64,000 nucleotides of DNA from Abyssibacter profundi (GTDB lineage Bacteria > Pseudomonadota > Gammaproteobacteria > Nevskiales > OUC007), in the NCBI RefSeq assembly GCF_003151135.1, contig NZ_QEQK01000001.1, forward strand, positions 230,829 through 294,828, read 5' to 3'. The notes under the pieces were generated by a model. The model was not told the origin of the DNA. It ran no database searches and was given only the letters and a program-made list of their open reading frames with translations. Shown here piece after piece: positions 13,813 through 32,198 of the stretch. Every line of letters starts with the position of its first letter. Position 1 is the first letter of the stretch. A program made the position numbers and the translations under genes.

Positions 13813-16800
13813 TCAGGCAGCCACTTGGTTGACGGCCTGCAAACAGCTGATCAGTGCGTCCACTTCGGCATCGGCAAAAACTCCTTCAACGCCGTCGTGG
13901 TGCAAACCACTAAACGGCGGCTCGTAGAGCTGACCAGGGTCCATCAGCCCGTTTCTGGTCAGATGCTCGATGATCATCTGTACAAAGCGAATCTGTGTAC
14001 TGCTGTACCTGGACTCATCCAAGTACTCCGAAAACGCCTGCATCGCAGCGCTACGATCAAGCCCAACCATGGACCGGATCAATGCGGCTAGCGAGCGATC
14101 TTCGCCAAATGCTTCAACAAACTGGTCGCGCCCGCCGACCACATCGGACTCGTAGACGAAGCGCTCCAACTCATTCAGGTCCTGCGGCGTCAATGCAATG
14201 TTCCGTTTCAACCGCTCGATCGCAATGTGCTGCTCATGGTCTCGGATAAACGCTTCCACCTTGCGGCGGTATCGAGCGAGGTTGATGCCTGTCGTCGCAT
14301 CCAACAACTCGACTTCAGTGGCCTCCCCGATTTCATCCTGCAAAGCGGTGTAGACGGGGTGGATTGCTTGCCGGTCGATGAACTGGATTAGACCGCGCAG
14401 CTTGCGGCGAACAGTTTCAATCATCGGCAGCGAGACATCCTTCCAGAATGCATCGGTCTGAACGTCCTGAATCAGTGACAGCTCAGCATTGACCGCCGGT
14501 ATCGTGTCCTTGGTCTCCAAGGCCTCTGCAAATCCGATGATCCGATCCCGGTACTGTGGGTACTCTGAGGTTTCGTTTACCAGCGCCAGTTGTAGATGCA
14601 GACAGGTCAGATCGAAGAGCTTGGCTGTCATGTCGTCGGGAGGCAGTTCACTTGGCAACCCGGCCACATGGTCTCGCAGATCAACGAAATTCTCGTCTCC
14701 GATGTGCTCCCACGCAGACCGCTCCCGATAGCGCAACACGAATTCACCCGCAGGGCGAACGATGAAGTTCTGCAGGTTCATCGCCGCGACCTCTCGCTGC
14801 AGATCATCCGCCAACTGCGCCCGCAGAGTACGAAGCCCGCCGTAGTCGCCAGGCTCGTCTCGAACTACAACCGCGTCATCTGATGCCCGCGCCGGCAAAG
14901 CGGTCAGCAGCTCCAGGCGGCGCTTAAACAAGCGCTTGCCGAGCGGCTCTGCGGCAGATGCTGCCGCGCCCTCGGGGTGCTCATTGAAATATTCGAAGTT
15001 TCCGCAGAAATCGAAGATCAGGAACGCCTCCTTGTCCTGCCCTGGGCCAAACAAGTCCGAGCACAACCGAGTTCCCCGCCCGATCATCTGCAGAAACTTC
15101 ACCTTTGACCGCACCGCCTTGAAGAAGACCAGATTGACGACCTCGGGTACGTCGATGCCGGTGTCCAGCATGTCCACGCTGATCGCGATCTGCGGCAGCT
15201 TGGCGGCATCGCTGAAGTCGTCGATCAGGCTTTGCGCGTAGCTGACGGAGTGCGTGATCACGCGCGCGAATGCGCCGTTGTACTGCGGGTAGTTGCGATC
15301 GAACCGCTCCGCAATGAAGTTTGCGTGCCGCTGGTTCACGGCGAAGATGATGGTCTTGCCGATGGTGTCACCGCCGTCCACGCGCAGGCCGTGCTCCATC
15401 AGGTGCTGCAGCATCAAGTCAACGGTGTGCTCGTTGTAGAGCTTCTTGTTGATGTCGGCGGCGTGGACGGCATCGGGCACGTCATCGTCGTCACGGTCGC
15501 CCCAGTCCAGCGATTCCCAGTGCTCCTTTTCCTGGTCTGACAACTCGTCGTACCGAATCCCCTCCCGGACGAACTTGATGGGCACCGACTGCGCACGGGG
15601 CGGCACCAGATACCCATCATCCACGGCCTCATCCAGGCTGTAGGCATCCGTCGGCACCCCGGTTTCCAGGCCGAACAGCCGGTAAGTGTCGAAGTCGACC
15701 TCGTCCCGCGGGGTTGCGGTCAGTCCCACCAGCAGGCTGTCGAAGTAGCGGAAGATGGCCCCGTACTTCTGGTAGACGCTGCGGTGGGCCTCGTCGATGA
15801 TGATCACGTCGAAGTGCCCGACACCGTAGGCGCGCCGCTCACCGTCGAGCTGGTCGATCAACCCCATCATGGTCGGGTAGGTGGACAGGTAGACGCGGCC
15901 CTGCCCGGCCTTGTCCGTCACCAGATTGACCGGGCTGGAATCCGGCAAATGGGTCTTGAACGCATTGGTGGCCTGTTTGACCAACGCCACGCGGTCGGCC
16001 AGAAACAACACCCGCTTGGCGAGGTTGGCCCGCATCAGCACATCGACCAAGGCGATGGCCGTGCGCGTCTTGCCCGTTCCGGTGGCCATGGTCAGCAATC
16101 CGGCCCGCTTGCCGCTGTCGAAGCTCTCGCTCATGGAACGGATTGCGCGGTGCTGATAGGGACGCTCGACGATGTCGCTGTTGATGGCCAGCGATCGCAG
16201 CGGTTGCACGATGTCGCGCCGCGTGATGGCCAGGGCCAGCTCGTCGCGGGTGTAGAAACCCTGCACCTGACGCGGCGGCGCACGCCGGTCGTCCCACAGC
16301 CAAGTCTGATGCCCGTTGGTGTAGAAGATCAGCGGCCGCTGGCCCTTCATCGCTTGGAGGCAATCGGCGTACAGCTTGGCCTGTTGCTGCCCGACTTCAG
16401 GATCTTTCATCGTGCGTTTGGCTTCGACGACAGCCAGAGGCTTGCCGTCGGTTCCCCATAGCACGTAATCGGCAAAGCCCTCGCCCTGGCTGTTCGGCAT
16501 ACCCTCCAGCGGCACCTCCTCGCCCGCCGTCTGCCCGACGACCCAACCGGCTTCGCGTAGCAGCACGTCAATGAGCAACCGACGCGTGTCGGCCTCGTTG
16601 TAGTCGTGCTCGTCCGGCACGGCGATGTTGGCGGCCTTGGCCTCGGCCAGCGCCGCGCGCGCCGCGGCCAACTCCGCGTTGAGCTCAGCCAGTTGTGCTT
16701 CGCGTTCCTCCAGCGTGGCGGCCGATTCGGCAATGGCCGCTTCCCGCTGCTCGATGGCCTCATGCTGCTCGCGAATCTGGGCCTGGAACCGTTCTTCGGC

Positions 16801-17301
16801 AGCTTGCAACTCGGCCTTGCTCAGAGCCCGTGCCTGTTCAGCCGCCTCGTCGGCGGACACCAGCTTGGGCACACGGCTATCGTCGAACCGCGCATCAATG
16901 GCCTTCGGATCGCTGGCGCGTGTATAAGTCCGCGCCAGCCAGAACATGACGTGAAACAGCTCACGCACCAGCTTGAGTGCGTCACCCGGATGCACAAAGC
17001 GATTCGAATGCACGGCCTGATTGCCGAACTTCTGGATCAGCCGCATCTTCTGGTGAATGCGATCTGGCACCAGCCGCTCGAACTGCTGATGGGTTAGCAG
17101 CGCGTTGAGCTGGTTGTCGTACGGCATCCGCAGGTCACGGTCGTGCTCGTAGAGCCAGTGCACGGCCTGCTCCAGTGCATGGCGGATGCGCATGCAGCAC
17201 GCCCGGGCGTCGGAATGCACCAGCGCCTCCGCCGCAATCGCGTGGGCGTGTAGTGGCTTGAACTCGGCGGCCAGGAACTGGAAGTTTGACGCTGAGTTCA
17301 T
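13813..17301 (-). CDS. hsdR: Type I restriction endonuclease subunit R with N-terminal DUF4145
   Basis: HsdR is the ATP-driven translocase and nuclease of a type I restriction-modification enzyme. The product is 1162 residues. Residues 1 to about 130 match DUF4145 (ALEQAVHWLYEHD, GNQAVHSN), followed by a coiled coil (about 165-225). The HSDR_N nuclease fold has ADYVLWGTDGKP and the VVEAKRT catalytic Glu-x-Lys. The helicase has GTGKT (about 408-412), IIDEAH (about 503), a LTATPRDE motif and the conserved QMIGRGTRLC. The C-terminal EcoEI-type domain completes it. Its start is 10 bp after the PIN gene stop, so it lies at the end of the island transcript. hsdM and hsdS are about 3 kb upstream, separated by three inserted genes. 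Confidence 0.93.
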   Translation of the reverse strand: MNSASNFQFLAAEFKPLHAHAIAAEALVHSDARACCMRIRHALEQAVHWLYEHDRDLRMPYDNQLNALLTHQQFERLVPDRIHQKMRLIQKFGNQAVHSNRFVHPGDALKLVRELFHVMFWLARTYTRASDPKAIDARFDDSRVPKLVSADEAAEQARALSKAELQAAEERFQAQIREQHEAIEQREAAIAESAATLEEREAQLAELNAELAAARAALAEAKAANIAVPDEHDYNEADTRRLLIDVLLREAGWVVGQTAGEEVPLEGMPNSQGEGFADYVLWGTDGKPLAVVEAKRTMKDPEVGQQQAKLYADCLQAMKGQRPLIFYTNGHQTWLWDDRRAPPRQVQGFYTRDELALAITRRDIVQPLRSLAINSDIVERPYQHRAIRSMSESFDSGKRAGLLTMATGTGKTRTAIALVDVLMRANLAKRVLFLADRVALVKQATNAFKTHLPDSSPVNLVTDKAGQGRVYLSTYPTMMGLIDQLDGERRAYGVGHFDVIIIDEAHRSVYQKYGAIFRYFDSLLVGLTATPRDEVDFDTYRLFGLETGVPTDAYSLDEAVDDGYLVPPRAQSVPIKFVREGIRYDELSDQEKEHWESLDWGDRDDDDVPDAVHAADINKKLYNEHTVDLMLQHLMEHGLRVDGGDTIGKTIIFAVNQRHANFIAERFDRNYPQYNGAFARVITHSVSYAQSLIDDFSDAAKLPQIAISVDMLDTGIDVPEVVNLVFFKAVRSKVKFLQMIGRGTRLCSDLFGPGQDKEAFLIFDFCGNFEYFNEHPEGAAASAAEPLGKRLFKRRLELLTALPARASDDAVVVRDEPGDYGGLRTLRAQLADDLQREVAAMNLQNFIVRPAGEFVLRYRERSAWEHIGDENFVDLRDHVAGLPSELPPDDMTAKLFDLTCLHLQLALVNETSEYPQYRDRIIGFAEALETKDTIPAVNAELSLIQDVQTDAFWKDVSLPMIETVRRKLRGLIQFIDRQAIHPVYTALQDEIGEATEVELLDATTGINLARYRRKVEAFIRDHEQHIAIERLKRNIALTPQDLNELERFVYESDVVGGRDQFVEAFGEDRSLAALIRSMVGLDRSAAMQAFSEYLDESRYSSTQIRFVQMIIEHLTRNGLMDPGQLYEPPFSGLHHDGVEGVFADAEVDALISCLQAVNQVAA

Positions 17302-17880: not shown

Positions 17881-17887
17881 GCAAGCC

Positions 17888-18340
17888 TCAGTACCCCAGG
17901 CCCAGGCGTTGTGCCTCCGCGGTGAGTTCAGCCAACGCCTCCCGGCGTTTGGTCAACTGCGTCTCGCGATAGCGCAGGACGTCCTCGGCGCGCACGCGCC
18001 GATGGCTACCCACCTTGATGTAAGCAATGTCGCCCGACTCCAGCAATTTGATCAGATACGGGCGGGATACGTTCAGCAGGTCGGCTGCCTGTGAGGTGGT
18101 CAGCTCCGCGTGTACGGGCACCAGCGTGACTGCATTGCCTTCAGCCATTTCGGCGAAGATGCGGTTGAGCATGCGCACGACATACACCGGCAGTTCGAGC
18201 GCTTCATCACCGCCGTTGGCTTGCAACCGCACGTGGCACTGATCGGTCTCGACCATCTCGGCAAGCCGGCGTTGCAGTTGTTTCGCTTGCTCTTGCTCTT
18301 CTTGGGAGGGAAGAGACAGATTGCCGTCATCGTCTGCCAT
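17888..18340 (-). CDS. HTH excisionase-family protein, probable antitoxin of the PIN toxin
   Basis: The product is 150 residues. A MerR/excisionase-type helix-turn-helix spans about residues 76-125 (ELTTSQAADLLNVSRPYLIK, then HRRVRAEDVLRYRE). The N-terminal part is acidic and Gln-rich (coiled-coil-like), and the C-terminal tail is Ala/Glu-rich. A perfect GGAGGT ribosome binding site lies five bases before the ATG. It is followed seven bases later by the PIN gene. Antitoxins of this class bind their own operator, and a 9-bp tandem repeat overlaps the promoter just upstream. Confidence 0.82.
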   Translation of the reverse strand: MADDDGNLSLPSQEEQEQAKQLQRRLAEMVETDQCHVRLQANGGDEALELPVYVVRMLNRIFAEMAEGNAVTLVPVHAELTTSQAADLLNVSRPYLIKLLESGDIAYIKVGSHRRVRAEDVLRYRETQLTKRREALAELTAEAQRLGLGY

Positions 18341-18407: not shown

Positions 18408-20300
18408 CTAGGCCGCTTGTCCACTGCCAGTCGCCTCAGCCTGGCTGCGCCGAGCAACTGCCTGAATGGAGTCCGCGACCCGCTGCGTGAATGCCGATTC
18501 GTCACGGCAGGTCATCACCAGGTGCTCCATGGCGCGGGTCATGGCCACGTACAGCAACCGCGCCTCATCGGATTCTGACTCGCCCTTCTTCGGCATCTGG
18601 CACAGGTCCGGGATGATCACGAGCCCGAACTCCAGCCCCTTGCTGGAGTGCATGCTCACCAGCTTGACCGTCTGCCCGTCGGCGTACAGGCCGGTCTTGC
18701 CGGATCGGCTGGCCGTGGATGTGACCGGCACACCGGCGCCCTTCAGCGCGCGCTCCAGCGCACTGGCTTGCTTGCCGGAGCGGTAGATCACCGCAATATC
18801 GTCGTAGTCCCGCCCCTGCCCATTGGCGTCGACAATCCGCTGGACCACGCAATCCATCTGCTGCCAGTGTCCCTCGCAGCGGATCAATTCCGGGAAGGGC
18901 CCGCTGCGGCCCGCCGTCTCCGGCGCAATCGTCGGCACCCCGTCGTCATCACCGGTGGTCTCGGACAGCAATTCGCTGGCGAACAGCTTGGCCACCGACA
19001 ACACCTCGGCGGTGTTGCGGTAGTTCACCTTCAGGATCGTCGTGCGCCCCCGCGCCTGAATGCCCACGCTGGCAAAGCTGAAGTCCAGCTCGCGCTTCTT
19101 GCGGTGGTAGATCGACTGGGCATCGTCGTAGAGCACGAGCAGTGAGTCGGTATCGGGGTCGATCATCTGCACGACCAGCCGGAACCAATCCGGCTCGAAG
19201 TCGTGGCCCTCGTCGATCAGCACGGCGCTGTACTGGGCGCGGGGAATCTGTCCGCGCTCGACACCTGCCATGGTGGTCTCGACCAGCGCCGCCACGTACT
19301 GGCCCGCATTGCCCTTGTTGGCGGGTTTGGGCACATGAAACGCCCGGAGCATATCGCCGCACCAGCCGTGGAAGTGCCGCACGACGACTTGCTCGCTCAG
19401 GCCGCGCTCGCCCATCACCTGCTGCAAGCGCGCGGCCAGCGCCTTGTTGTAGCAGAGCACCAGCACCGGCTTGCTGGACAGCTGCGACAGATACGCCGCC
19501 CGGTAGCCCAGGATCATGGTCTTGCCCGAACCCGCCGCGCCATGAATCACGCGGTGGCCCGCCCCCAGCGAGCGCGCCAGTTGCTCCTGCTGCAAGTCCA
19601 TGACCTTGACCAAATCGGGTACGGACTCGGGCGTGGTCTCCAGCGGCAAACCGAACTGCCCCAGTTGCGGGTTGACCCGCACCTCGGGAAACAAATGCCA
19701 GCGCACCCGGTCGATCTGCGGCAAGGTGAGCTGGCACGGGAACACATGGTGGAACATGCCCCATAGCCGTTCCTGAAACGCCTCGTCGTCCACCGACTCG
19801 GTCATCTCGTCCTTGCAGATCACACGCACCGGCTGCAGCACCTCGCCCAGGTCGGTGGACTCGAACTGCTGCCGCGTGATGTTTGATAACACCACACCCC
19901 AGGCAAACGGCATGATCAGCTTGCCCTGATACGCCGAGCCGCCTTCACGCACCAGCCGCGGGTCCTGCTCCAGCACCTTGGCCGTCTCCAGCGCATACAC
20001 GCTGGCCTGGAGCATCGGGTTCTTCACCTTCTTGATGCCGCCGTGGACGACAATCCGCGCCTCGCTCTTGTCGATGGTCGCGATGGTGTCCAGCTTCCAG
20101 TCCTTGACCTCCAGCACCAGCCAGCCACGCAGCGGATGCAGCACGATAAAGTCCGGCCGCAAGGCCTTGGGGCCGACCGGCACGTCGTACCAGCACAGGT
20201 AATCGTCCTCCAGCTTCTTCTCCAGCCGCTCGGCCAAGCGCCTCTCGCCGGAGGTCATCCGGTGCAGGCAGCTGGTGCGGGCGGGGAAGAACTGCGCCAT
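18408..20300 (-). CDS. NERD domain / UvrD-Rep family (SF1) helicase
   Basis: The product is 630 residues. The N-terminal NERD nuclease-related domain (about 1-130) includes LRPDFIVLHP and LVLEVKDWKLD, which supply the Asp and Glu-x-Lys expected of the fold. The SF1 helicase core follows: GAAGSGKT (about 247), LIDEGHDF in the Walker B position, VKLVSMHSSKGLEF and LLYVAMTRAMEHL in the second RecA domain. Such proteins are thought to nick or unwind nucleic acid. It begins six bases after the hsdS frame, so it is co-transcribed with the R-M genes, and an antiphage or DNA-processing accessory role is inferred. Confidence 0.87.
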   Translation of the reverse strand: MAQFFPARTSCLHRMTSGERRLAERLEKKLEDDYLCWYDVPVGPKALRPDFIVLHPLRGWLVLEVKDWKLDTIATIDKSEARIVVHGGIKKVKNPMLQASVYALETAKVLEQDPRLVREGGSAYQGKLIMPFAWGVVLSNITRQQFESTDLGEVLQPVRVICKDEMTESVDDEAFQERLWGMFHHVFPCQLTLPQIDRVRWHLFPEVRVNPQLGQFGLPLETTPESVPDLVKVMDLQQEQLARSLGAGHRVIHGAAGSGKTMILGYRAAYLSQLSSKPVLVLCYNKALAARLQQVMGERGLSEQVVVRHFHGWCGDMLRAFHVPKPANKGNAGQYVAALVETTMAGVERGQIPRAQYSAVLIDEGHDFEPDWFRLVVQMIDPDTDSLLVLYDDAQSIYHRKKRELDFSFASVGIQARGRTTILKVNYRNTAEVLSVAKLFASELLSETTGDDDGVPTIAPETAGRSGPFPELIRCEGHWQQMDCVVQRIVDANGQGRDYDDIAVIYRSGKQASALERALKGAGVPVTSTASRSGKTGLYADGQTVKLVSMHSSKGLEFGLVIIPDLCQMPKKGESESDEARLLYVAMTRAMEHLVMTCRDESAFTQRVADSIQAVARRSQAEATGSGQAA

Positions 20301-20306
20301 GTCAGG

Positions 20307-21518
20307 TCACGCGGCTTGGCTCAGTTGGCCGGAGAAGGCGCGTTGCTGGAGGGAGGCGAGCAATTCATCTTGCTTGCTACCGGAATACGCTAGTTCCATT
20401 CGACGATGTCGGATAACACCACACAGCTGCTCAAACCGTCGTTGCATGGGCAATGGCGGGAGCGGCAAAACAAGATCCCTGATGTTCTTCAGACTTATGT
20501 TCGCTCGAGCCGCATCAACCTTCCCGCCAAGCAACCTATTCTGACCGCTCGGGGTCAGAAGCATTGCCATAACGAAGTCGACCGAAATTCGCGTCCGGTC
20601 CAAAGTCACAGTCGCTACAGCCTGATTTATGTTTGCCGGCAATAAGTCGTCTTCCATGATGGAGAGACGACCGATTGACGCTCCCACAAGATTAATTAGC
20701 AAATCGCTACTCTTAAGGCGCGACCGGCAAATTTTATCGTCAAAATCGCTGGGAATGAATTTGTCTTTTCTAATCATCCTTCCCCGACCGACGTTCTCGC
20801 TGGTGATGAAGCGCACACCATCGTCGCAGTATTCGAAACCCTGCCATTTTGGACTTTCGCCTTTGGTTATACGTTCCGCCAAGGAACCTACTGGCACCTC
20901 CGCCCACCCCTTCGGATTCGTCACCGGATCGCCAAACATGTCCAGAAACACGGACTGCAGGAGTTGATCGAGCTTGGCGATGGCTTCGCGGCGCTTGGCG
21001 CGCAGCGCGTCGGCCTTGTCCAGAATCGCCGCGATGCGACGTTGTTCGGGGAGTGGGGGGAGTGGGATTTCTAGTTCGTTAAGGTGTTCGTTGCGCAAAT
21101 TGTTGATGTTTGCACCGGCCGCGAGACTGGAAACCTTCTGCCTGTATTTCTTGGTCTGGAATTATTGAGCAAAGTAGCCCGCGTCTACAGCATCGCTCGG
21201 CCTTAATACTTTGCAGAATGCACCAAAGCCGCCGTCGAAATCGGCCAACGACCGGGCAGCTTTTCCGACAACATCAAGGCTGCCGCTAGATGCAGCGATC
21301 ACGACGTCGTTCTTACGAACTTTTTGCTTTCCGGAAACTTTGCCTTCTGGAATGTAGACGAGGCCATCCGAAGTAAGCCCAAATTCCGTTATGTTATTGG
21401 CTCGGAGAACAGGCAGATATTGTTCGCGCGGGGTCGTGACGGCATCAGCTTTCGAGTAAGTCACGCCACGAATTTGTTCGCAGATATCACCGACTCTCAC
21501 TATAGGCACAGCAGTCAA
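20307..21518 (-). pseudogene. hsdS: Type I specificity subunit HsdS interrupted by an in-frame TAA
   Basis: HsdS sets the DNA target of a type I enzyme. The frame runs 404 codons from a TTG start at 21518, which overlaps the hsdM stop (TTGA). Codon 119 is TAA (21164-21162). Before it lies a first target-recognition domain (LPVLRANNITE). After it, in the same frame with no shift, come KYRQKVSS, NINNLRNEHL, the IPLPPLPEQRRIAAIL helix, FGDPVTNPKGW, a second recognition domain and LPPLPMQRR. The context GYFAQ-stop-FQTKKYRQ suggests a Tyr codon (TAT/TAC) changed to TAA. The whole would be about 403 residues, a normal HsdS size. Possible outcomes are a dead gene, a half-subunit from a downstream start such as TTG 21098, readthrough, or a sequencing error. 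Confidence 0.85.
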
Positions 21519-22999
21519 GACAACATCCCCTCCAACTCCTCCATCCCCTGCATGATCTCGGCTTCCAACGCCTTCAACTCGGCCAGAATCTGCTGCGGCG
21601 GGTCGTACTGCACTTCCTCGTAGACGACTTCCTTGTAGCGGTTGATCGACAAGTCGTAGTCGTTATCGGCGATCTCGGCCTTGGGCACGACGAAGCTCTG
21701 CTCGGTGCGGGCGCGGTCGGCCTCGGCGTCGCGGTGCTGCCAGCGCTGCAAGATGTCCGGCAGGTTGTTGGTGGCGTGCTGGGTCTGATCCAGCGCCGTG
21801 CGCTTGTCGTCCAGCGAGTAACCATCGGCCTGCATGTCGTAGAACCAGACGCCGTCGGTGCCGCCGGAGTCGGTCCGGGTGAACAGCAGGATGGCGGTGG
21901 ACACCCCGGCGTAGGGCTTGAACACGCCGGAGGGCATGGAGACGATGCCGTCCAGCTTGTGGTCCTCGACCAGAGCCTTGCGCAGGGTTTTGTGGGCCTT
22001 GGATGAGCCGAACAACACGCCGTCCGGCACGATGACGGCGGCGCGGCCACCGGGTTGCAGCAGGCGCAGGAACAGCGCGAGGAACAGCAGCTCGGTCTTC
22101 TTGGTCTTGACGACCTTCTGCAAGTCCTTGGCCGTGCTCTCGTAATCCAGCGACCCGGCGAACGGCGGGTTGGCGAGGATCAGGCTGAACTGCCCTTCCA
22201 CGCTGGCGTGGCCTTCGCTGAGCGAATCACGATTCTCGATGGCCGGGTTCTCCACGCCATGCAGCAGCATGTTCATGGAGCCGACGCGCAGCATGGTGCT
22301 GTCGAAGTCGAAGCCGTGGAAGGTGTCGCGGTTGAAGCGCGCCGTGGACTGTTTGCTGGCGTAGATCTCGGCCTGGTGGTGGTCGTACAGGTACTCGCTG
22401 GCGGCCACCAGGAAGCCGGCCGTGCCGCAGGCCGGGTCGCAGATGGTGTCCGCCGGCTTGGGCGCCATCATCTCGACCATGAGCTTGATGATGTGCCGCG
22501 GCGTGCGGAACTGGCCGTTCTGGCCGGCGCTGGCGATCTTGCCCAGCATGTATTCGTAGAGATCGCCCTTGGTGTCGCGATCGTCCATGGGGATGGCGTC
22601 CAGCATGTCCACCACCTTGGCCAGCAGCGCCGGCGTCGGGATGGTGAAGCGGGCATCCTTCATGTGCGCGGAGTACGTGGAATCCGCCTCCCCGCCGCCC
22701 AGTCGCTTGATAAAGGGGAACACCTCATCGGCAATGGTGTTGTAGAGCGTTTGCGGGTCTCCCAATTCGCGAAAGCGGGACCAGCGCAGCCGCTGCTCAC
22801 CTGGCCCGAAGATCGGGCGCTCGATGGGCCGACCGAGCCGGGTGGCCTTTTTCTCTCGCAGGGTGTGCAGTTCGTCCAATCGCTTGATGAACAACAGATA
22901 GGTCATCTGCTCAATGACCTCCAGCGGGTTGCTGATACCGCCGCTCCAGAAGGCATCCCAGATGCGGTCAACCTGATGCTTGATATCGCCTGTGATCAT
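21515..22999 (-). CDS. hsdM: Type I R-M DNA methyltransferase subunit HsdM
   Basis: HsdM is the N6-adenine methyltransferase subunit that works with HsdS to modify host DNA. The product is 494 residues, a normal size. The N-terminal HsdM helical domain (IKHQVDRIWDAFWSG, IEQMTYLLFIKRLD) precedes the SAM-binding motif CDPACGTAGF (about residue 186) and the catalytic NPPF motif (about 275). It starts 18 bp after the zorD stop with no room for a promoter, so it is probably read through from the Zorya genes. Its stop overlaps the hsdS start by four bases. Confidence 0.95.
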   Translation of the reverse strand: MITGDIKHQVDRIWDAFWSGGISNPLEVIEQMTYLLFIKRLDELHTLREKKATRLGRPIERPIFGPGEQRLRWSRFRELGDPQTLYNTIADEVFPFIKRLGGGEADSTYSAHMKDARFTIPTPALLAKVVDMLDAIPMDDRDTKGDLYEYMLGKIASAGQNGQFRTPRHIIKLMVEMMAPKPADTICDPACGTAGFLVAASEYLYDHHQAEIYASKQSTARFNRDTFHGFDFDSTMLRVGSMNMLLHGVENPAIENRDSLSEGHASVEGQFSLILANPPFAGSLDYESTAKDLQKVVKTKKTELLFLALFLRLLQPGGRAAVIVPDGVLFGSSKAHKTLRKALVEDHKLDGIVSMPSGVFKPYAGVSTAILLFTRTDSGGTDGVWFYDMQADGYSLDDKRTALDQTQHATNNLPDILQRWQHRDAEADRARTEQSFVVPKAEIADNDYDLSINRYKEVVYEEVQYDPPQQILAELKALEAEIMQGMEELEGMLS

Positions 23000-23017: not shown

Positions 23018-25966
23018 TTACAGGGTGCTCAGAACCGCGGATTCATCCAGGGCCGGAGAGATCACGGCGTCCTTGATCGATTCCTTGGACTTGAGCAGTT
23101 GGTCCAGCTTGTCGTCGAAGCTGGTGAATTGTGGGTGCGCTGATGCCGGTAGGTACACCTGCACGGGCCGCTGCTGGCCGATGCGGTACACACGGTCGGT
23201 GGCCTGGGCCTCCTTGGCCGGGTTCCAATGCCGCTCGAGATGAATGACATGGTTGGCCTCAGTCACCGTGAGCCCCACGCCGGCCGCAACCGGCGACATG
23301 ATGAGGATGGCAAAGCCCGGCGTCTGCTGAAAACGGTCGATGATCTGCAAACGGCTGGGTGAGTGACCCGATGCCCGAGTTTTGGTCTCGCCATTGACGA
23401 TGCTGACAGGCACTCCAAACTCAGCCTCTAACCAAACCTTGAGGTGGCGCTGCAGCGTCTTGTAGATCGCAAAGATCAACACCTTCTCATTGGCCGCGCG
23501 AATCTGCTCCAAGATAGGCCGAATGGCCATGACCTTGCCGGATTCAGCGGCCCACTGCTGGGGCGACTGCGTGTCGGTGGCCTTGTCCAGCAGTGCCGGG
23601 TGCAGCGAGACCTGACGCAGGCGATGCAGCGCCTTGAGGGCACCGGCGTTGCCCTGATTGGCCTCTTTGAGGGCGTGGAGGTCGGACAGGGCCTGGTCGT
23701 AATGCCGAATTTGCACATCGGTCATCGGTGCCCGAAGAAACTGACGAAATGAGGCATCTTCATCATCGGTAGGCATGCGAGCCCCGCGTAGGATGGTCTT
23801 GGGCGGCAGGCCATCGAGCACATCCTCCTTCACACGGCGCAGCATGAATCGGCCGACATCACTGTGAAGCTGTCGTCCCACACCCACCGGGTCGGACTCC
23901 GCCGGGCTGACGTAGCTGTCTTTGAACTCGCTCCAGGTGCCTAGCAGGCCAGGCTGGGCAATATCCATGATGCACCAGAACTCGCTGAGGCGATTCTCAA
24001 CCGGCGTGCCCGTCGCCAGTAACTTGAACTGGGCGCGTAGCGCGGCCGCGGCCCTTGTTTGGAGCGTGTTGGGGTTCTTGACGTTCTGCGCCTCATCGAA
24101 AATCACCCAACTCCAGTCGATCCGACCCAGCGAAAATTGATAGTTGCGCAACGTGTCGTAGCTGGTGAGCACCAGGCGGCGCGGACGATCCAGCCGCACC
24201 GAATCAGGGTAGGTCTTTCCGACCCGCAAGGCGTAACGCACGCTGCTTTCGTCCAGCAGCTGGCCATCCTCCAGGTCCTGGTGCGTCTCGCGCGCCTGGC
24301 CTTCGAGCCGGAAGCGATTCAGGTCGCGATCAGCCTGAAGGATGACGACGTCATCAAATGGCGACTGGGCAACCGTTTTCTCAACCTCGTCCGCCCAGTT
24401 TTGCAGCAGCGATAACGGGGCTACGACCAGCACGGGCTTTTCGGTCTCTCCGACCTCGCGCATGCGTTGTAGATACTGATCGACAGCCACGATGGCCATA
24501 TACGTTTTGCCGAGGCCCATGTCATCGGCCAACAAGCCGCCCTGCGGGCCCTGCTCTCGAGTCTCCGGCCTGAGCGAAGCCGCCGACAGGCGCAGCATCC
24601 ATTCGATCCCCTCTCGCTGGTGGGTGAACGGCGTGCGCTTGTACGCGCTGTAGTCAATATCGATTGGGCCGGCCGTATCAGCAGGCTTGCCATCAACGCC
24701 TTCGAGGGCTTCCTTCAGCTCGAAGGTCGCGCGCTCCTTCTTGGGCTTATCGCCACCCGCACCAGAAGGCTCGCTCACCAGGCGATCTCGAACTTTGTCA
24801 AGCGCTTGATCAACGGCCTCGGGCTCGGAGATATCGATGGACTGCTCGCGACACCGAGCATAGGCTGCGCCAGACTGCCGGGCCTCTTGCAGGTTGCACT
24901 CGAACTCGCTGAGCTCCTCGAAGGAACTGATCAAGTTGACAATGACCTCCGGCGAGCAGGCGTTGGCAGCGGCCTCGAACCAATCCGTCCCGGAGCCACC
25001 AAACTCGGCACTCGGGATATGCTGGAAGACGGTGACCCCCTCAACCCGCACGGCAAAACCCGTTTCTAGGTCGATCAGGCCCGGATCGAGAAATGCGCTC
25101 GGTGTCTCCAGAAACTGTTTGGCCTCGGCTGCTGGGATGTGGTGCCGCTGCATGACCTCCTTGACCGCAGCCCGGCGCTCACCATCGAGCAGGACAATCT
25201 TGTCGCGCACCCGGAGGCTGTTCCCGTCCTCTCCTTCCAATTGGCCAAGCCGCAAATCGACGTCATCGACTGCAATGCCTTCACCGAAATTTGGTGACAC
25301 GCGCAGCGAACCATCGCGCATCTTGGTGACGGCTACACTAGGTTTGTCGGGTACGACGACTTCCAGTTCTCGGAAGTGCCGAAGGTCGATCGGCAAACCA
25401 TTGCGCTCCGCGCTCTGCAAACTGGCAACCAACGCCAGATTACGAGGCTCTGTGCGCTGCGCGGACTCAAGCCTGGCGTGATCGTCCAGCGCACGTGCCG
25501 CGTCATACCATGGACCGCGCAGCAGCCGGTCGCCCAGACCGGGGATATGAATCACGACACCGTATGGCGGCGGCAATGGCAGACGATCACCGTCAGGCAA
25601 ACACAGCTGCCCCTTCACCTGGAATGCATGCTGCGTCGTCCGGCCGGTGACCGATAACTCAAGCTTGCCCTCAAGCGGCACAGGCAGGGCCAGCAAGCGC
25701 GCCTCATCATCGCCCAACCTCGAGAGCTCAGGGGCCGCGACGAAATACCCCGCGGGGATGGCTTCGGCGAGGCCTTCTTCCTCCATCTGCTCCAAAAGCG
25801 CCCGCTGGTAGGAGAGCAGGTCAGAGCTGGCGTTGGCATGCGGAGCCGCGAACTCTGCGCCCTCACCCGTAAGCTCCAGCGCGAACCGAGCATCCTCTTT
25901 GCGACTCTGCCCAAGAATGCGTTGAATCCAGGATCGCTTTGGTTTGTGCACGGGAGCCGGACTCAT
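23018..25966 (-). CDS. zorD: Zorya defence protein ZorD, SNF2-family helicase
   Basis: ZorD is the effector helicase (and reported nuclease) of type I Zorya. The product is about 982 residues. Residues 1 to about 430 form a long N-terminal region without motifs I recognise. The SNF2 core has GGLLADDMGLGKT (Lys about 487), the DEAQ box in IFDEAQNVKNP, ATGTPVENRL, and the C-terminal ERHWNPAKEAQATDRVYRIG. The ATG at 25966 is preferred over the one at 25978: it has GGAG six bases upstream and overlaps the zorC stop as ATGA. Fourth gene of the Zorya set. Confidence 0.9.
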   Translation of the reverse strand: MSPAPVHKPKRSWIQRILGQSRKEDARFALELTGEGAEFAAPHANASSDLLSYQRALLEQMEEEGLAEAIPAGYFVAAPELSRLGDDEARLLALPVPLEGKLELSVTGRTTQHAFQVKGQLCLPDGDRLPLPPPYGVVIHIPGLGDRLLRGPWYDAARALDDHARLESAQRTEPRNLALVASLQSAERNGLPIDLRHFRELEVVVPDKPSVAVTKMRDGSLRVSPNFGEGIAVDDVDLRLGQLEGEDGNSLRVRDKIVLLDGERRAAVKEVMQRHHIPAAEAKQFLETPSAFLDPGLIDLETGFAVRVEGVTVFQHIPSAEFGGSGTDWFEAAANACSPEVIVNLISSFEELSEFECNLQEARQSGAAYARCREQSIDISEPEAVDQALDKVRDRLVSEPSGAGGDKPKKERATFELKEALEGVDGKPADTAGPIDIDYSAYKRTPFTHQREGIEWMLRLSAASLRPETREQGPQGGLLADDMGLGKTYMAIVAVDQYLQRMREVGETEKPVLVVAPLSLLQNWADEVEKTVAQSPFDDVVILQADRDLNRFRLEGQARETHQDLEDGQLLDESSVRYALRVGKTYPDSVRLDRPRRLVLTSYDTLRNYQFSLGRIDWSWVIFDEAQNVKNPNTLQTRAAAALRAQFKLLATGTPVENRLSEFWCIMDIAQPGLLGTWSEFKDSYVSPAESDPVGVGRQLHSDVGRFMLRRVKEDVLDGLPPKTILRGARMPTDDEDASFRQFLRAPMTDVQIRHYDQALSDLHALKEANQGNAGALKALHRLRQVSLHPALLDKATDTQSPQQWAAESGKVMAIRPILEQIRAANEKVLIFAIYKTLQRHLKVWLEAEFGVPVSIVNGETKTRASGHSPSRLQIIDRFQQTPGFAILIMSPVAAGVGLTVTEANHVIHLERHWNPAKEAQATDRVYRIGQQRPVQVYLPASAHPQFTSFDDKLDQLLKSKESIKDAVISPALDESAVLSTL

Positions 25967-27687
25967 TTGAGTCTCCATTTATTCGCGAGATTCCGCTTGA
26001 ATAGATCCGGGCGCGAGAACATTGCGCGTTCGACTTTCACGATTCGGATCCCCGTCTTCTCGGAAATCTCCGTTGCATAGAGCGGCGACGCAGCCGCCTC
26101 CAAGGTTTGGCGGATACTGACGATCGTGTTGCCGTCGTCTCGAAATGGCGCCTTCGGTGTTTGCATACGTCTTTTAGGCTGCGCGGAGGGTGCTGTGGTT
26201 TCTCGCCGGAACCGGGCGAGCTGAGAAGCAGAAAGCACTTGTGTCTCATCGACCCGCACACCTGCATTGCGAAGCACTCGAATAGCCTCATACACCCATT
26301 TCAGATTGGTGTAGTGCGTGGAGGCAAAATGCCGATACTGAGACTTGGGAGTACCAGGATCGTAGAGGGAGCGTTCTAGATCTGGGCCTAGATCGAGAGG
26401 GTTAATCGGGTGTTTATCATGCTGAAACACGATGCAATCTGCCGGCAGCGACGGATAAATGTAAATACGGAAGCTATGCGTACCCTCAACCAGATGCACC
26501 GACCCGACCTGCATGTAGATCACGGATTTGGACGCGTCAGATAGCCTTCCAAAAACATTCAGCTGACGCTCCGGGTACTGTCTCTTCACGTAGGAAAGTG
26601 CTTCTCTTGAGAGGAAGAGGCGCGAGTTAACAACCGCCCCGGTCTCAAGAATTGCTGTCAAGAGCTGCTTCCTCGCAGGGAACATACGCTGCAGCTCAGC
26701 GTTGCTGCTCTGCTTTCCAACCTCTTCCAGCACTTCGAGAAACAGGCCGATATCCAGTTGCGACATCCAGCCCTGCATGCGCCGAACGCGCTCTGGGCCA
26801 ACTGGATCCCACCAACGCTGATAGCTGGGTGCTGACGGAGGCAACCGCGGATCGCCGGCGATCTCCAGGATGGCCTCACGCCAGGCGTCTGAAAGCTGGC
26901 TGTCTGCACTGCGGTCGATCAGCACCTCCAGGACTTTGACACCAATTGTTTTCCCTTCGCCATAGGGCAGGCGTGCCACCGACTTTTGGGTAACCTCAGC
27001 GAACACAGCTGTGTCGGCACCGACGTCGATTTGTTCGAGATGCTCGATATAGAAAATGGCCTGGCATCGCTGAGCAAACCGGCCTGCGCGATACGCACGC
27101 AGACCCCAAGCGCGCCATGCTTCTTCGAGATCGGAGTAACGTTGGCGCGTGCTTGAGACCGTTGCCTGGATTGCCGATTCGGAGAATAGCCAGTCCTGAG
27201 CGCTTCGGACTTTGTCGAGATCGCTGCCCGATTGCCCTGCCCGTCGGGCGTTCAGGTGACGACGAAGAAATGTCTGACCGTGCTTCAACATATCGCCTTG
27301 GAACAAGCGATCGAAATGGTCGAAGTAGGCTCGCAGGAGCGCCGCCAATGTGAGCGAAGACAGCGGCAGACCCACTGTCTCGAACTGATCGAGCAACTCC
27401 TGCGTTGGAGGACAATTTTGTCGGAAGTTGGGTGAATCGACGTCCGCCCACAGATTTGCGCAGACCCTAATCGCGAGCCGGTCCGTCAGCAGGGGCATCA
27501 CGGCTGCCACACCGCCGCGTTGAGCCGCTCGTTGCAACTCAATCGATTTTAAATTGAAGCGGGAGCTCGGCTTCTCTGCCCGACTCGCCACTGCGCCTAA
27601 AGACGCATGCCGAGCCCGGATCCAACTAAGCTCAGCCGGCCGCCAATCCGGAAGTGAGAACTCGCCAAGTTGCAGAGACAGCGCCAT
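25963..27687 (-). CDS. zorC: Zorya defence protein ZorC (EH signature family)
   Basis: The product is 574 residues, mostly soluble, without a recognisable enzyme motif. Size, position between zorB and zorD, and segments such as VIYMQVGSVHLVEGTHSFRI and a basic linker near residue 500 followed by a winged-helix-like C-terminus fit ZorC, the EH-signature protein that in type I Zorya is thought to bind DNA and link the motor to the ZorD effector. Its ATG overlaps the zorB stop by one base (TAATG). The identification depends strongly on context. Confidence 0.85.
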   Translation of the reverse strand: MALSLQLGEFSLPDWRPAELSWIRARHASLGAVASRAEKPSSRFNLKSIELQRAAQRGGVAAVMPLLTDRLAIRVCANLWADVDSPNFRQNCPPTQELLDQFETVGLPLSSLTLAALLRAYFDHFDRLFQGDMLKHGQTFLRRHLNARRAGQSGSDLDKVRSAQDWLFSESAIQATVSSTRQRYSDLEEAWRAWGLRAYRAGRFAQRCQAIFYIEHLEQIDVGADTAVFAEVTQKSVARLPYGEGKTIGVKVLEVLIDRSADSQLSDAWREAILEIAGDPRLPPSAPSYQRWWDPVGPERVRRMQGWMSQLDIGLFLEVLEEVGKQSSNAELQRMFPARKQLLTAILETGAVVNSRLFLSREALSYVKRQYPERQLNVFGRLSDASKSVIYMQVGSVHLVEGTHSFRIYIYPSLPADCIVFQHDKHPINPLDLGPDLERSLYDPGTPKSQYRHFASTHYTNLKWVYEAIRVLRNAGVRVDETQVLSASQLARFRRETTAPSAQPKRRMQTPKAPFRDDGNTIVSIRQTLEAAASPLYATEISEKTGIRIVKVERAMFSRPDLFKRNLANKWRLK

Positions 27688-28427
27688 TACTGAAGCATCT
27701 CTCTGAGCGCCTCAAAATCCTTCACCGCGGGTTTTTTCACGGTGATTCGCAGATCAATTCTACGGTTTTGCTTTCTCTCCTCGCGTGTGCCCTGCGACGC
27801 AGTGATCGGCCGCGTTTCGCCATAGCCACTGACAGAGAACAACGGCTCACCGGCGTGGTTCCTGATTGTGGCTAGCTGCTCATCCTCGGTCTGCGACTCT
27901 GCCCAAAAGTTCCAGACTGAAATCGCCCGGAACGTGGACAAGCCCCAATTACCCATCTCGAGCGGCGACGGTAGTATGTCCGTGTGCCCTTCTACGAAGA
28001 TCGTGTCGAGATACGACCAGCGCTGCTCTTTTTCAATCGTGTTGTATAGAACCTCACCGATATAGGCCACGCTTTCCTGCGTAGACGGCTGTGAGGGGAT
28101 GTCGTGGCGGTTACTGTCAAACGCCAACGTCGTTTCTGGAATACGAATAACGGTGTGGTTATCACTGACCTCAACATCGATACCTCGGGTGGCCAACTCA
28201 TCTTTCACTTCCAGCACGATTTGGCGACGCACCTCTTCCGCTTTGGCCAATTCAAGGATTGCTTCGTTGACCTGCACTTTGGTCTTGGTGAGTTCGTAGA
28301 TCAGCACCAATGACGCGAGCACAAAAATGATGAGTAGCCCGGCCATGATGTCGGAGAAAGATATCCAATAGGGATTCTCCTCATCAGGCTTCGAGATGTG
28401 CTGGACAGTGCGGGTACCGAGGCTCAT
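27687..28427 (-). CDS. zorB: Zorya defence protein ZorB (MotB/OmpA-like)
   Basis: ZorB is the stator partner that anchors the ZorA channel to peptidoglycan. The product is 246 residues. A single membrane helix at about residues 26-46 begins with Asp26 (SFSDIMAGLL), matching the proton-carrying Asp of known ZorB and MotB proteins. The C-terminal OmpA/MotB domain has VEGHTDILPS, GYGETRPI and NRRIDLRI. The start overlaps the zorA stop by four bases (ATGA), and the stop overlaps the zorC start. Confidence 0.94.
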   Translation of the reverse strand: MSLGTRTVQHISKPDEENPYWISFSDIMAGLLIIFVLASLVLIYELTKTKVQVNEAILELAKAEEVRRQIVLEVKDELATRGIDVEVSDNHTVIRIPETTLAFDSNRHDIPSQPSTQESVAYIGEVLYNTIEKEQRWSYLDTIFVEGHTDILPSPLEMGNWGLSTFRAISVWNFWAESQTEDEQLATIRNHAGEPLFSVSGYGETRPITASQGTREERKQNRRIDLRITVKKPAVKDFEALREMLQ

Positions 28428-30355
28428 CGGTACGCGTTCGCCGCGGGCCGCCCCTTGGCTTCCATCTCGTCAATCACGTCTTGAATCAGCTTGACTGAAT
28501 CCACCATAGAGCGCGTGAACTGCTCGGTTTGCTCGTTCCAGGTGCTCAGTCGCTCGACCGTCTGACTCTTGACCCGATCTGCGTACTCATCCAGGAGGCT
28601 CTGAACGGATTCCTTCAGTTCGGCGACATGTTCCTTCAGGTGCTCTTGAGATTGACGCAGGTATTGCTCGACGGTCTCGAGCCCGCCATTGGAGTACTTG
28701 GAAATCTCGCGAACTTCTGTGATGACTTCATTGAGCCGTGAACTCAGTTGCCCGCCCTGCTCCAGCAATTGTTGCGCTTGAAGCACGGTTTGCTGGGCTG
28801 CATTCGAGACCTGGCCGGCGGACTCAAGCGCACCGTCGACACCCGACGCCAGCTTTGTTGTGGCTTGATCAATATTTTTTGCAAACGCATCGAACTGGCG
28901 TGTTGTTTCCGCCATCGCGACCGTGTTCTTTCGGTTCGCGTCGATTGTCGCCCGATGTGCATCGACCAGCTCGCCAAAGCTGGTCTTGAGATCAGCAAGG
29001 CGCTCTGACACGCCACCCAGCGCTTCCAGTTGTTCGGTGAGCTTCTGCGTTCGCTGCGCATCTGCAGCGCCAATTGCCTCAGCCTGTTGGCCAAAAGTAC
29101 TGACGACATTCTGAAGCAGGCCTGTCACCTCACTGGACATCCGTGCCTCGTGCTGTTGGCGCGCTTCTTCTGAAGCCTTTAGCTGCTCCTGCATGCGGCG
29201 GGCCCGGTCTGCCTCCACGGTGCCCATGCTACCGACCTGTCGCTCGAATTCGCCGACCACGCGACCCAACAGTTCGTCCATCTTGCCCGACATCCTCTCT
29301 TCGCGTTCCTGCTGTGCCTGACCGGATGTCTTCAAGTTGTCTGCGAGAGATTCGATCGCCTGATTGATACTGTTCGACGCGCCAGCCAATGCATCGCGCT
29401 GCGCATCAGCCTGCGAGCCCACCCGATCAAGAAATGTGTCGGTAAGCCGCTCCAGCATCGCACGAGAATTATCCTCCGCATTTTCGGCAAGCTTGGCTAA
29501 GGCCGGTGCGAGAATCCTCTCGAGCGATTCCTCAAGCCCACTGCGGATCGCCTGACTGGACTGCACCAGCGCCTCTTGCATCTTGTCCCCAATCCGCTCT
29601 GCCAGACCCTGCAGCGCCTCCGTGCTTTGAGCTGACTGCTCTTGGATCTCACGAAGCGAGTGCTCGGCGGTAATCCGCGGAAATAGATAATCCAGCCGAT
29701 TCTGTAGATCTGCGATCCGTGAGCGGACCTGGCGCTCAGCGGACTTCTCCATCGCGTTGAAAAGCACGCTCGCCAGCACACCCCACAACGAGGAGATGAA
29801 TGCGACCGACGCACCCTGAATCATGCCCTTGATTCCATCAATCAGAACCTGGACATCTCCAGATGAAAGGTCGAGACCGGACAACCCCATCTGCAAACCC
29901 GCAAACGTGCCGATCACGCCGATTGCCGTCAGGAAGCCGGGGACTGCTGCGAGCTGGCGGTTATCTGTGAGACCTCGCGCCAAGGAGTACGGGTTAAAAA
30001 AATGTCCCGCGTCTAACGTGTTGTAGACACGGTCGTCTCGCTCGGAGTAGACAAGCGATTCATGAAATTCATTCCAGAGATCACCTACGGTCTCAGAACG
30101 TTCGCGGGCACGTGCTCGTAGCTCTCGGTACACGGTTGGGAGCTGGGCCTTGTCCACACCTTCTACCAGCGCCGCAACGTGCGCAGTGCGCCGCTTGGCG
30201 ATATGGAACTCCCGCAACAGCTTAATGAGGAAGTAGAGCAGCAAACCGGCAATGACGACGAACGTGATCGCAGTGAGCTGTTTCGGGTCCCCGGACGAGA
30301 AGAGCAGGGAGACGTCCGGTACGAAGCTGGTCAAACTAAAGTGCTGTTCTTGCAT
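28424..30355 (-). CDS. zorA: Zorya defence protein ZorA (MotA-like motor with coiled-coil tail)
   Basis: ZorA forms the proton-driven inner-membrane motor of Zorya. The product is 643 residues. Membrane helices occur at about 28-47 (FVVIAGLLLYFLIKLL), then in the AVPGFLTAIGVIGTFAGLQ and ASVAFISSLWGVLASVLF segments typical of MotA/TolQ/ExbB. From about residue 220 to the end the sequence is a long Gln/Glu/Ala-rich coiled coil, the intracellular tail known to be required for signalling. It starts 18 bp after the ASCH gene stop. Confidence 0.93.
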   Translation of the reverse strand: MQEQHFSLTSFVPDVSLLFSSGDPKQLTAITFVVIAGLLLYFLIKLLREFHIAKRRTAHVAALVEGVDKAQLPTVYRELRARARERSETVGDLWNEFHESLVYSERDDRVYNTLDAGHFFNPYSLARGLTDNRQLAAVPGFLTAIGVIGTFAGLQMGLSGLDLSSGDVQVLIDGIKGMIQGASVAFISSLWGVLASVLFNAMEKSAERQVRSRIADLQNRLDYLFPRITAEHSLREIQEQSAQSTEALQGLAERIGDKMQEALVQSSQAIRSGLEESLERILAPALAKLAENAEDNSRAMLERLTDTFLDRVGSQADAQRDALAGASNSINQAIESLADNLKTSGQAQQEREERMSGKMDELLGRVVGEFERQVGSMGTVEADRARRMQEQLKASEEARQQHEARMSSEVTGLLQNVVSTFGQQAEAIGAADAQRTQKLTEQLEALGGVSERLADLKTSFGELVDAHRATIDANRKNTVAMAETTRQFDAFAKNIDQATTKLASGVDGALESAGQVSNAAQQTVLQAQQLLEQGGQLSSRLNEVITEVREISKYSNGGLETVEQYLRQSQEHLKEHVAELKESVQSLLDEYADRVKSQTVERLSTWNEQTEQFTRSMVDSVKLIQDVIDEMEAKGRPAANAYR

Positions 30356-30373: not shown

Positions 30374-31195
30374 TCAGGCAGGGACGAGCATGGCGTCAAG
30401 CGCGGCTCGGAGAGAGGAAAGGTTTTCCACGCGAATCTTGTGTCCGTGCGGGATCGGGTTAGCTCCCCTGTGCATTCGCTTGGGGAACTCCCTCATGTTG
30501 CTGCTGTGATAGAAGGTTCCCGGCACAGGGATTTCGACACCGGCCATGCCATACAGTGATGAAAGCGGCGTATCCGGGTGTGTGATAACCGAAATTCGAT
30601 CGCGTCCGGCATCCACCTTGTCAATGAACACCCCGGCATCAAGCAGCTTGTGTACCCAGAAGGATTTCTTCTTGGTTTCACGCACCTTGAAGTAGTTCGC
30701 GCTCGACAAGACAGATTCGATCGAGTTCAGCAAGGGAACTTGGTCCGCCAGCGGCTCGACGGAACGCGTAGAAATTTGCGCGGGTAACAAATGCGCCGGG
30801 GAAACCGAAGGCGATGCCTCCTCTCCTCCACCCAATTGCACCCAGGTGACGGCCCCTTTGGGATGCGAGTAAGAGACTGGTTGGTGGAACGCTTGCGCGT
30901 CCCTGAGAACCCAAGCGTGGCGCCATTTTCGCTTCGAAGGGTCTTCGATGGATTCGTCCGTCATCCGATGGAATGACTGACTGCCCCGCATGTCGGAATC
31001 TGACAGAGGTCCGATCGAGTCGACCAGTCGCGCTGTCCCCACGACGAGCCCGGATCCCTGTCGAATCAGGGCAATCTCTCCCCGAACACGGGTATGCGAA
31101 CTGCGCATCTCCCATGTCTTTTCCCCACTCAGGATCCAGCTAACGTACGGCTCTTTTATAACAAGGCCGCGTACAGGCAATTTTTTTGTAACCAA
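30374..31195 (-). CDS. ASCH domain protein leading the Zorya operon
   Basis: The product is about 273 residues. The N-terminal ASCH (PUA-like) domain includes VIKEPYVSWILSGEKTWEMR and GEIALI..GTARLVD. A linker and a C-terminal region (about 150-273) that I do not recognise follow. ASCH domains bind or process RNA, and some are ribonucleases. No ATG precedes the domain. TTG 31195 is chosen because GGAG lies six bases upstream; TTG 31207 is an alternative that adds four residues. It ends 18 bp before zorA on the same strand, so it belongs to the same transcript. It is not a standard Zorya component, and a regulatory or accessory role is inferred. Confidence 0.8.
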   Translation of the reverse strand: MVTKKLPVRGLVIKEPYVSWILSGEKTWEMRSSHTRVRGEIALIRQGSGLVVGTARLVDSIGPLSDSDMRGSQSFHRMTDESIEDPSKRKWRHAWVLRDAQAFHQPVSYSHPKGAVTWVQLGGGEEASPSVSPAHLLPAQISTRSVEPLADQVPLLNSIESVLSSANYFKVRETKKKSFWVHKLLDAGVFIDKVDAGRDRISVITHPDTPLSSLYGMAGVEIPVPGTFYHSSNMREFPKRMHRGANPIPHGHKIRVENLSSLRAALDAMLVPA

Positions 31196-31207
31196 TTTTT
31201 GCTCCAA

Positions 31208-31825: not shown

Positions 31826-31835
31826 GATACGAGAG

Positions 31836-31935
31836 GCGCCAGCGTCCCAATTCGCTCCCGGCGAATGGGTCGAACCGGGGGTTCTCGGCCTTGCCGCCGC
31901 GACCGATCCATCAAAAAGGCCCGCTGATGCGGGCC
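31836..31935. repeat. 100-bp direct repeat, copy A
   Basis: This copy matches 32013-32112 at an offset of 177 bp with few mismatches and no gaps. It carries an imperfect CCAATTCGC hairpin and ends in the hairpin GGCCCGC-TGAT-GCGGGCC (31918-31935). It is followed by GATGGACTGG and then GGGACCAGGATT (to about 31967), which resembles the 3' end of the tRNA-Gln gene beside copy B. Confidence 0.85.
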
Positions 31936-32012
31936 CTTATGCCCGATGGACTGGAGGGACCAGGATTGCTCGGCCCATCCATGGGCCTCGGCCTTCGGCC
32001 CGCCGGCGCGCT

Positions 32013-32112
32013 GCGCCAGCGTCCCAATTCGCTCCCGGCGAATTGGTCGAACCGGGGGTTCTCGGCCTTGCCGCCACGACTGATCCATCAAAAAAGCCCG
32101 CTGATGCGGGCC
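32013..32112. repeat. 100-bp direct repeat, copy B, next to tRNA-Gln
   Basis: This is the second copy of the repeat at 31836. It contains a perfect 9-bp stem with a five-base loop (CCAATTCGC at 32024-32032, GCGAATTGG at 32038-32046). It runs into the tRNA-Gln terminator hairpin. Confidence 0.85.
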
Positions 32113-32124
32113 TTTTTGATGGAT
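32083..32124 (-). terminator. Terminator of tRNA-Gln
   Basis: A long inverted repeat has outer arms ATCCATCAAAAA and TTTTTGATGGAT and a CCCGC-TGAT-GCGGG core. Read on the minus strand it is a GC stem followed by a T run, directly after the tRNA 3' end. Its symmetry means it could also stop plus-strand transcription. Confidence 0.8.
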
Positions 32125-32198
32125 TGGCTGGGGGACCAGGATTCGAACCTGGATTGACGGAGTCAGAGTCCGTAGTCCTACCGTTAGACGATCCCCCA
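32125..32198 (-). tRNA. tRNA-Gln (anticodon CTG)
   Basis: The gene is 74 nt including an encoded CCA. The acceptor stem TGGGGGA pairs perfectly with TCCCCCA. The anticodon stem ACGGA/TCCGT holds the loop CTCTGAC, giving anticodon CTG for CAG codons. The T arm is CCAGG-TTCGAAT-CCTGG. The 3' end faces the defence island. Confidence 0.96.

Follow-up and report, generated by a model that had tools for sequence, protein, structure and literature searches.

The window analysed here, a stretch of 64,000 nucleotides from Abyssibacter profundi, contains a type I Zorya operon that begins with a gene for an ASCH-domain protein. All four subunits of the described type I system (ZorABCD) are present and in order, but an ASCH gene is not part of that system as described (PMC11890865, PMC12904381). 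The question is therefore what this protein does, and whether it serves Zorya at all. We consider it about evenly probable (roughly 0.5) that the protein serves DNA-targeting defence as an optional accessory and reads DNA, probably base modifications, to help tell phage from self.

The Zorya operon and its first gene

The features of the window that are relevant here are the following:

30374..31195, (-): ASCH-domain protein gene, 273 aa, TTG start, first gene of the Zorya operon (ORF, GGAG, Pfam ASCH, homologs)
30833..31174, (-): ASCH domain, residues ~8-121 (alignment, predicted model, 2dp9 match)
30377..30733, (-): C-terminal module (FHNSN module), residues ~155-273, FYHSSNMREFPKR...PIPHG (tblastn, phmmer)
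28424..30355, (-): zorA (PADLOC ZorA1 3.5e-161)
27687..28427, (-): zorB (PADLOC ZorB1 7.5e-97)
25963..27687, (-): zorC, EH_Signature (PADLOC ZorC1 2.4e-109; Pfam PF15611)
23018..25978, (-): zorD, SNF2 helicase (PADLOC ZorD1 E 0)
21515..22999, (-): hsdM, from the neighbouring type I restriction-modification (RM) system (PADLOC MTase_I 3e-196)
20307..21518, (-): hsdS, with one in-frame stop (translation; Pfam Methylase_S on the downstream part)
13813..17301, (-): hsdR (Pfam HSDR_N, ResIII, EcoEI_R_C)

The ASCH reading frame starts with a TTG at 31195 and stays open for 273 codons, preceded at a few bases by a GGAG that resembles a ribosome-binding site; an alternative in-frame TTG at 31207 would lengthen the protein by four codons. 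Its stop is separated by 18 bp from the zorA ATG at 30355. Residues 13-58 match the Pfam ASCH family above the cut-off (E 1.3e-4; 23 vs 21.2 bits). Relatives of the ASCH part are numerous in genomes, plasmids and Vibrio phages, with 39-55% identity, and nearly all match residues 9-121 only; given such relatives in other genomes, the frame is not a chance ORF. The original prediction was correct in the coordinates and strand of the gene, its spacing to zorA and its ASCH domain, as confirmed by the ORF, Pfam and PADLOC. No PADLOC model matches the ASCH protein itself, and the ASCH genes of two Hma operons are likewise without a model in the library searched.

The genes zorA, zorB, zorC and zorD lie in one operon according to PADLOC and Pfam, and are followed on the same strand by hsdM, hsdS, a gene for a NERD-UvrD helicase (18408-20300), a helix-turn-helix/PIN pair and hsdR. 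This toxin-antitoxin-like pair (17311-18340, (-)) is embedded in the hsd operon, immediately ahead of hsdR. The in-frame stop in hsdS falls in the first target-recognition half, so that the RM system of the window may be inactive or work with a half-size subunit. The G+C content of the island is ~57-60% in places, against 64-65% around it. Near the island end (31830-32198) a tRNA-Gln gene is present (32125-32198, (-)), alongside a ~180-bp imperfect direct repeat; a second copy of the tRNA-Gln end was not found, and insertion at tRNA-Gln is a candidate only. Elsewhere in the same genome a second MotB/ZorB-like ORF is observed (G000:C1:160830-161558, E 8e-16), which probably encodes a stator protein, flagellar or generic.

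The ASCH fold and the C-terminal module

The predicted structure of the ASCH domain has pLDDT values of ~90 or more across most of residues 11-110. Both by profile and by fold, the closest solved ASCH domain is that of TTHA0113 from Thermus thermophilus (PDB entries 2dp9 and 1wk2): a profile of the window ASCH relatives matches it with E 5e-23, and the predicted fold of residues 2-118 superimposes on 2dp9 with Z 14.8 and an rmsd of 2.8 over 114 aligned residues. TTHA0113 itself is a single-domain protein not known from a defence context, whereas the window protein consists of two parts. The model further resembles ZmASCH (Z 11.8) and the ASCH domain of TRIP4, which was solved with dsDNA (Z ~11), and, more weakly, YqfB (Z 8.6), YTH and EVE domains (~7) and the EVE-HNH endonuclease VcaM4I (6yex, Z 6.9). 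The match to 2dp9, which lies far above those to the YTH and EVE domains, identifies the fold as a PUA-like beta-barrel. The motif given for ASCH domains, GxKxxxxR (PMC5615036), is found as G24-E-K26-T-W-E29-M-R31 and is invariant across 11 aligned relatives. In this alignment of 11 rows the invariant residues include Lys26, Trp28, Glu29, Arg31, His76, Trp95, P106, Tyr109 and His111.

Such a set of conserved residues would suit a catalytic effector, either releasing bases, like the 5hmC DNA glycosylase BapA, or cutting RNA, like ZmASCH. BapA is an anti-phage glycosylase with an ASCH-like fold (PMC13160076), ssRNA is cut by ZmASCH (PMC5615036), and K26, E29, R31, H76, Y109 and H111 are among the residues without exchange in the aligned relatives. 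Nevertheless we regard a catalytic role as unlikely. The systems that receive the ASCH protein already have nucleases, and the YqfB comparison argues against catalysis as well. YqfB and ZmASCH, both single-domain proteins, have the ASCH fold and the GxKxxxxR motif in common with the window protein. The catalytic triad of YqfB is formed by Lys21, Thr24 and Glu74, with the nucleophilic Thr three residues past the catalytic Lys (PMC6972931). At that position the window protein has the invariant Glu29, so that the Thr-Lys-Glu triad is absent and YqfB chemistry is not expected; a YqfB-type ac4C amidohydrolase was rejected on these grounds. The hallmark of the ZmASCH-type ribonuclease is a set of cleft residues, Tyr47, Lys53 and Ser128. 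A modification-dependent endonuclease of the EVE-HNH or SRA-HNH kind was also discarded, as the family searches, Pfam and PADLOC among them, give no nuclease family in the 273-aa protein. In this respect it differs from the EVE-HNH endonucleases such as VcaM4I, with which it shares a related barrel fold; a fusion to HNH_2 is seen only in relatives of its second module.

The C-terminal half, described in the original prediction as unrecognised, indeed gave no family in Pfam, NCBIfam, PADLOC or PHROGs, and searched alone it gave no phage, plasmid or viral relative of note; it can now be described as an HNH_2-associated module. The identification came from a single genome of the same order, G1122 (tblastn E 1.8e-5), and phmmer gave relatives with 3e-7 and 3e-5 (against 1738 ORFs). 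It also forms the N-terminus of HNH_2 endonucleases encoded in type I RM operons, and therefore has DNA-restriction relatives. The relative in G1122 is a 272-aa protein in which a window-type module precedes an HNH_2 domain (Pfam). A protein with a window-type module is also encoded inside an hsd-zor island on the P. aeruginosa plasmid pPAG5 (L066); since the match covers the C-terminal module only, this protein is not counted among the ASCH relatives. In both cases the module gene lies between hsdR and hsdM (L167:7316-13791 in G1122, L066:4012-10844 on pPAG5), with HNH_2 fused to the module in G1122 and encoded by a separate next, overlapping ORF on pPAG5. The module-bearing gene appears to be an additional part of certain type I RM operons. 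Modelled within the full-length protein, the C-terminal half of the window protein has pLDDT values mostly <55, and accordingly no fold is claimed for it.

Comparison of the ASCH relatives that carry a C-terminal extension reveals three kinds of module behind one common type of ASCH domain: one in L002, G653, a Marinobacter plasmid and the viral contig L149, a second in L003, L004 and G538, and a third in the window protein. The C-terminal halves have been swapped among these relatives. The C-terminal part of the L003 protein is predicted to adopt a B3-like DNA-binding fold, as known from plants (NGA1 with Z 9.3 across 102 residues and RAV1 with 8.9, among many more), so that two of the three kinds have a DNA-related second module. 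Seven of the eight extended relatives are located in defence loci, the exception being L149. Most close relatives of the window ASCH domain are single-domain phage and plasmid proteins of ~110-130 aa, with neighbours that are mostly unannotated phage or plasmid genes, and a search of BFVD retrieved giant-virus and phage ASCH domains only. Homologs scattered without any link to defence, the case set against the original prediction, are thus what is seen for most of the single-domain relatives, but not for the extended ones.

ASCH genes beside Zorya and other defence systems

Four further, unrelated genomes encode relatives of the ASCH protein next to type I Zorya or close to it, and the placement of the gene varies from locus to locus. 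In L002 (Thalassotalea) the zorD stop abuts the ASCH start (0 bp), and a 216-aa gene, hsdM and a probable hsdS follow. In L003 (Amaricoccus) the ASCH gene is convergent to zorDCBA, with 24 bp to zorD. In G653 it precedes zorA by 36 bp, with no type I RM match in the stretches read, and in G538 it lies 3.1 kb before zorA, behind a GmrSD gene. L002 to L005 are four relatives found via ASCH when one genome of each species was scanned; G653 and G538 were found via ZorB, from Zorya loci detected by ZorB or ZorC alone and read with their flanks. Because of this bait effect, a screen of one class and a scan of 41 genomes served as tests of their own. The genomes of L002, L003 and L005 (3/4 of the one-genome-per-species relatives) encode ZorC; it was not found in those of L004 (a MAG), G145 and G337.

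The class screen covered 385 genomes drawn evenly from one class other than that of the window. The ASCH subfamily occurs in 2/385 and ZorC in 13/385 of these, with both ASCH genomes among the 13 (Fisher p 0.001). An ASCH profile run over 41 whole Zorya genomes gave four matches, in the window, G653, G538 and G1058. In three of the 41, the window included (~7%), the ASCH gene lies within 6 kb of Zorya; in G1058 it is 34.5 kb away, between hmaA and hmaB. The flanks of 24 further ZorC loci contain no ASCH gene. In these scans ORFs in unannotated genomes were called mechanically, and the ASCH profile is blind to distant ASCH or EVE stand-ins. The subfamily is rare and its nearness to Zorya is far above chance, while most Zorya loci are without it. 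With ASCH within 6 kb in only 3/41 Zorya genomes, the protein is to be seen as an optional accessory, and the status of a core Zorya subunit was rejected. For the co-occurrence that the original prediction proposed to test, the class screen and the four loci, where the gene lies near zorA or zorD, give a positive result, but the gene is infrequent among Zorya genomes at large.

The genes directly before zorA in other Zorya loci encode HNH_2, RmuC or unrelated proteins, with no EVE, ASCH or SRA domain by Pfam. The HNH_2 gene is found in this position in another type I Zorya locus, that of G637 (L046:11931-12725), so the slot ahead of zorA may hold different accessories. In two Zorya loci from unrelated genomes a 216-219-aa gene adjoins the ASCH gene (L061:4564-5223 and L002:3881-4531, E 3e-73 between the pair); it has only a sub-threshold HEPN-like match and may be a third component.

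The ASCH subfamily is not specific to Zorya, because it also occurs with Druantia III, Hma, type ISP RM and GmrSD systems. On a Marinobacter plasmid an ASCH gene with a G653-type C-terminus stands behind DruE of Druantia III, in a region interrupted by insertion sequences, and on a Bradyrhizobium plasmid the ASCH gene is located directly behind hmaA. The latter arrangement is observed in two Hma operons (L138:2162-12347 and L068:6498-18527). In L005 (Rhodanobacter) the gene follows a type ISP restriction enzyme, and in L004, at a contig end, a GmrSD gene. In a tree of 41 ASCH domains the Zorya-linked ones do not form one group. Well-supported branches require at least 3 switches from Zorya to another system or back; for example, L062 (Zorya) pairs with L138 (Hma), and the Zorya-linked L003 groups with L004 (GmrSD) and L068 (Hma). 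Such partner changes indicate repeated recruitment rather than a single inherited linkage; the ASCH gene has been placed repeatedly and independently beside Zorya and other DNA helicase/nuclease systems. Of the original prediction's unnoticed Zorya partner, what holds is a recurrent optional accessory, not one confined to Zorya.

The variable placement also bears on the idea of an operon regulator, i.e., a DNA-binding first gene product that would control expression of zorABCD. The position of the window gene ahead of zorA and the B3-like fold of the L003 relative would suit such a role, but the gene follows zorD in L002, is convergent to it in L003 and sits between hmaA and hmaB in Hma, which makes a regulator improbable. 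A promoter scan gave no promoter or operator before the ASCH gene, and none anywhere nearby either.

A further explanation is that the ASCH protein is a neighbour of Zorya and not its partner, serving a restriction system present alongside (type I RM, type ISP or GmrSD) or being a free-standing island gene that came to lie beside Zorya through defence-gene clustering. Type I RM genes are near 4/5 of the Zorya loci with ASCH, against 2/~42 of those without (the flanks searched were unequal), and on this count Zorya and RM are not separable as the true partner. Standalone EVE and ASCH proteins occur with type I RM, and EVE with a COG1743-DUF499-SNF2 system (Bell et al. 2020, PMC7641849). The ASCH gene of L005 abuts type ISP, and the C-terminal module of the window protein is found again in HNH genes that belong to type I RM operons. 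However, the G653 locus combines ASCH and Zorya with no type I RM match in the stretches read, the ASCH gene of L002 and L003 lies directly against zorD, and in the window it is at the far end from hsdM, and hsdS is broken by a stop. We therefore hold the neighbour explanation to be possible but doubtful.

A putative reader of DNA chemistry

The preferred reading, an optional accessory that reads DNA, draws on the partners and on the modules. All recurrent partner systems are DNA-targeting (ZorD, DruE3, HmaA/B/C, type ISP, GmrSD). These DNA-acting partners, together with the B3-like fold in L003 and the module shared with HNH_2 nucleases, disfavour the RNA-targeting effector put forward in the original prediction. 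We infer that the ASCH protein binds DNA rather than RNA, reads a modification and touches ZorC/ZorD. For ASCH and PUA domains of defence proteins the literature describes a role in reading modified bases (PMC7641849, PMC12839542, PMC10853773), with a thin experimental basis in the case of ASCH (PMC11037411). Like the EVE/ASCH readers of Bell et al., the window protein has the same superfamily fold, is found beside DNA helicase, methylase and nuclease systems and is exchanged between systems. Zorya is not mentioned there (PMC7641849), and the proteins considered here differ in belonging to a GEKTWEMR subfamily with swappable C-terminal modules and in their association with type I Zorya, Druantia III and Hma. 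No tie between ASCH and Zorya was found in the literature covered, i.e., open-licence PMC papers.

In the proposed mechanism, the PUA-like pocket of the ASCH domain would take up a nucleobase of DNA that is flipped or modified, while the exchangeable C-terminal module (FHNSN in the window protein, B3-like or a third domain elsewhere) would supply further DNA contacts or information on the surrounding sequence. By sensing the chemistry of the DNA that enters the cell, the protein could assist ZorC/ZorD, after their recruitment by the ZorAB motor, in engaging phage DNA or in leaving self-marked DNA alone. As Hma, type ISP and type I RM systems carry or adjoin an adenine methylase, a reader of an m6A self-mark would suit, but the G653 locus is without a type I RM match. 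Tentatively, the portable ASCH cassette with its swappable second DNA-binding modules may be a common reader subunit of the otherwise unrelated, DNA-targeting Zorya I, Druantia III, Hma, type ISP and GmrSD systems, and would let Zorya check DNA chemistry as well.

Zorya is presumed to respond to perturbation of the membrane during phage injection, and the sparing of host DNA by its nucleases is a standing question. If the proposed role is true, a reader-like accessory recruited repeatedly beside ZorD and other helicases would give a direct handle on self-sparing, and the recurring ASCH cassette would serve as a search key linking defence systems with a common recognition subunit.
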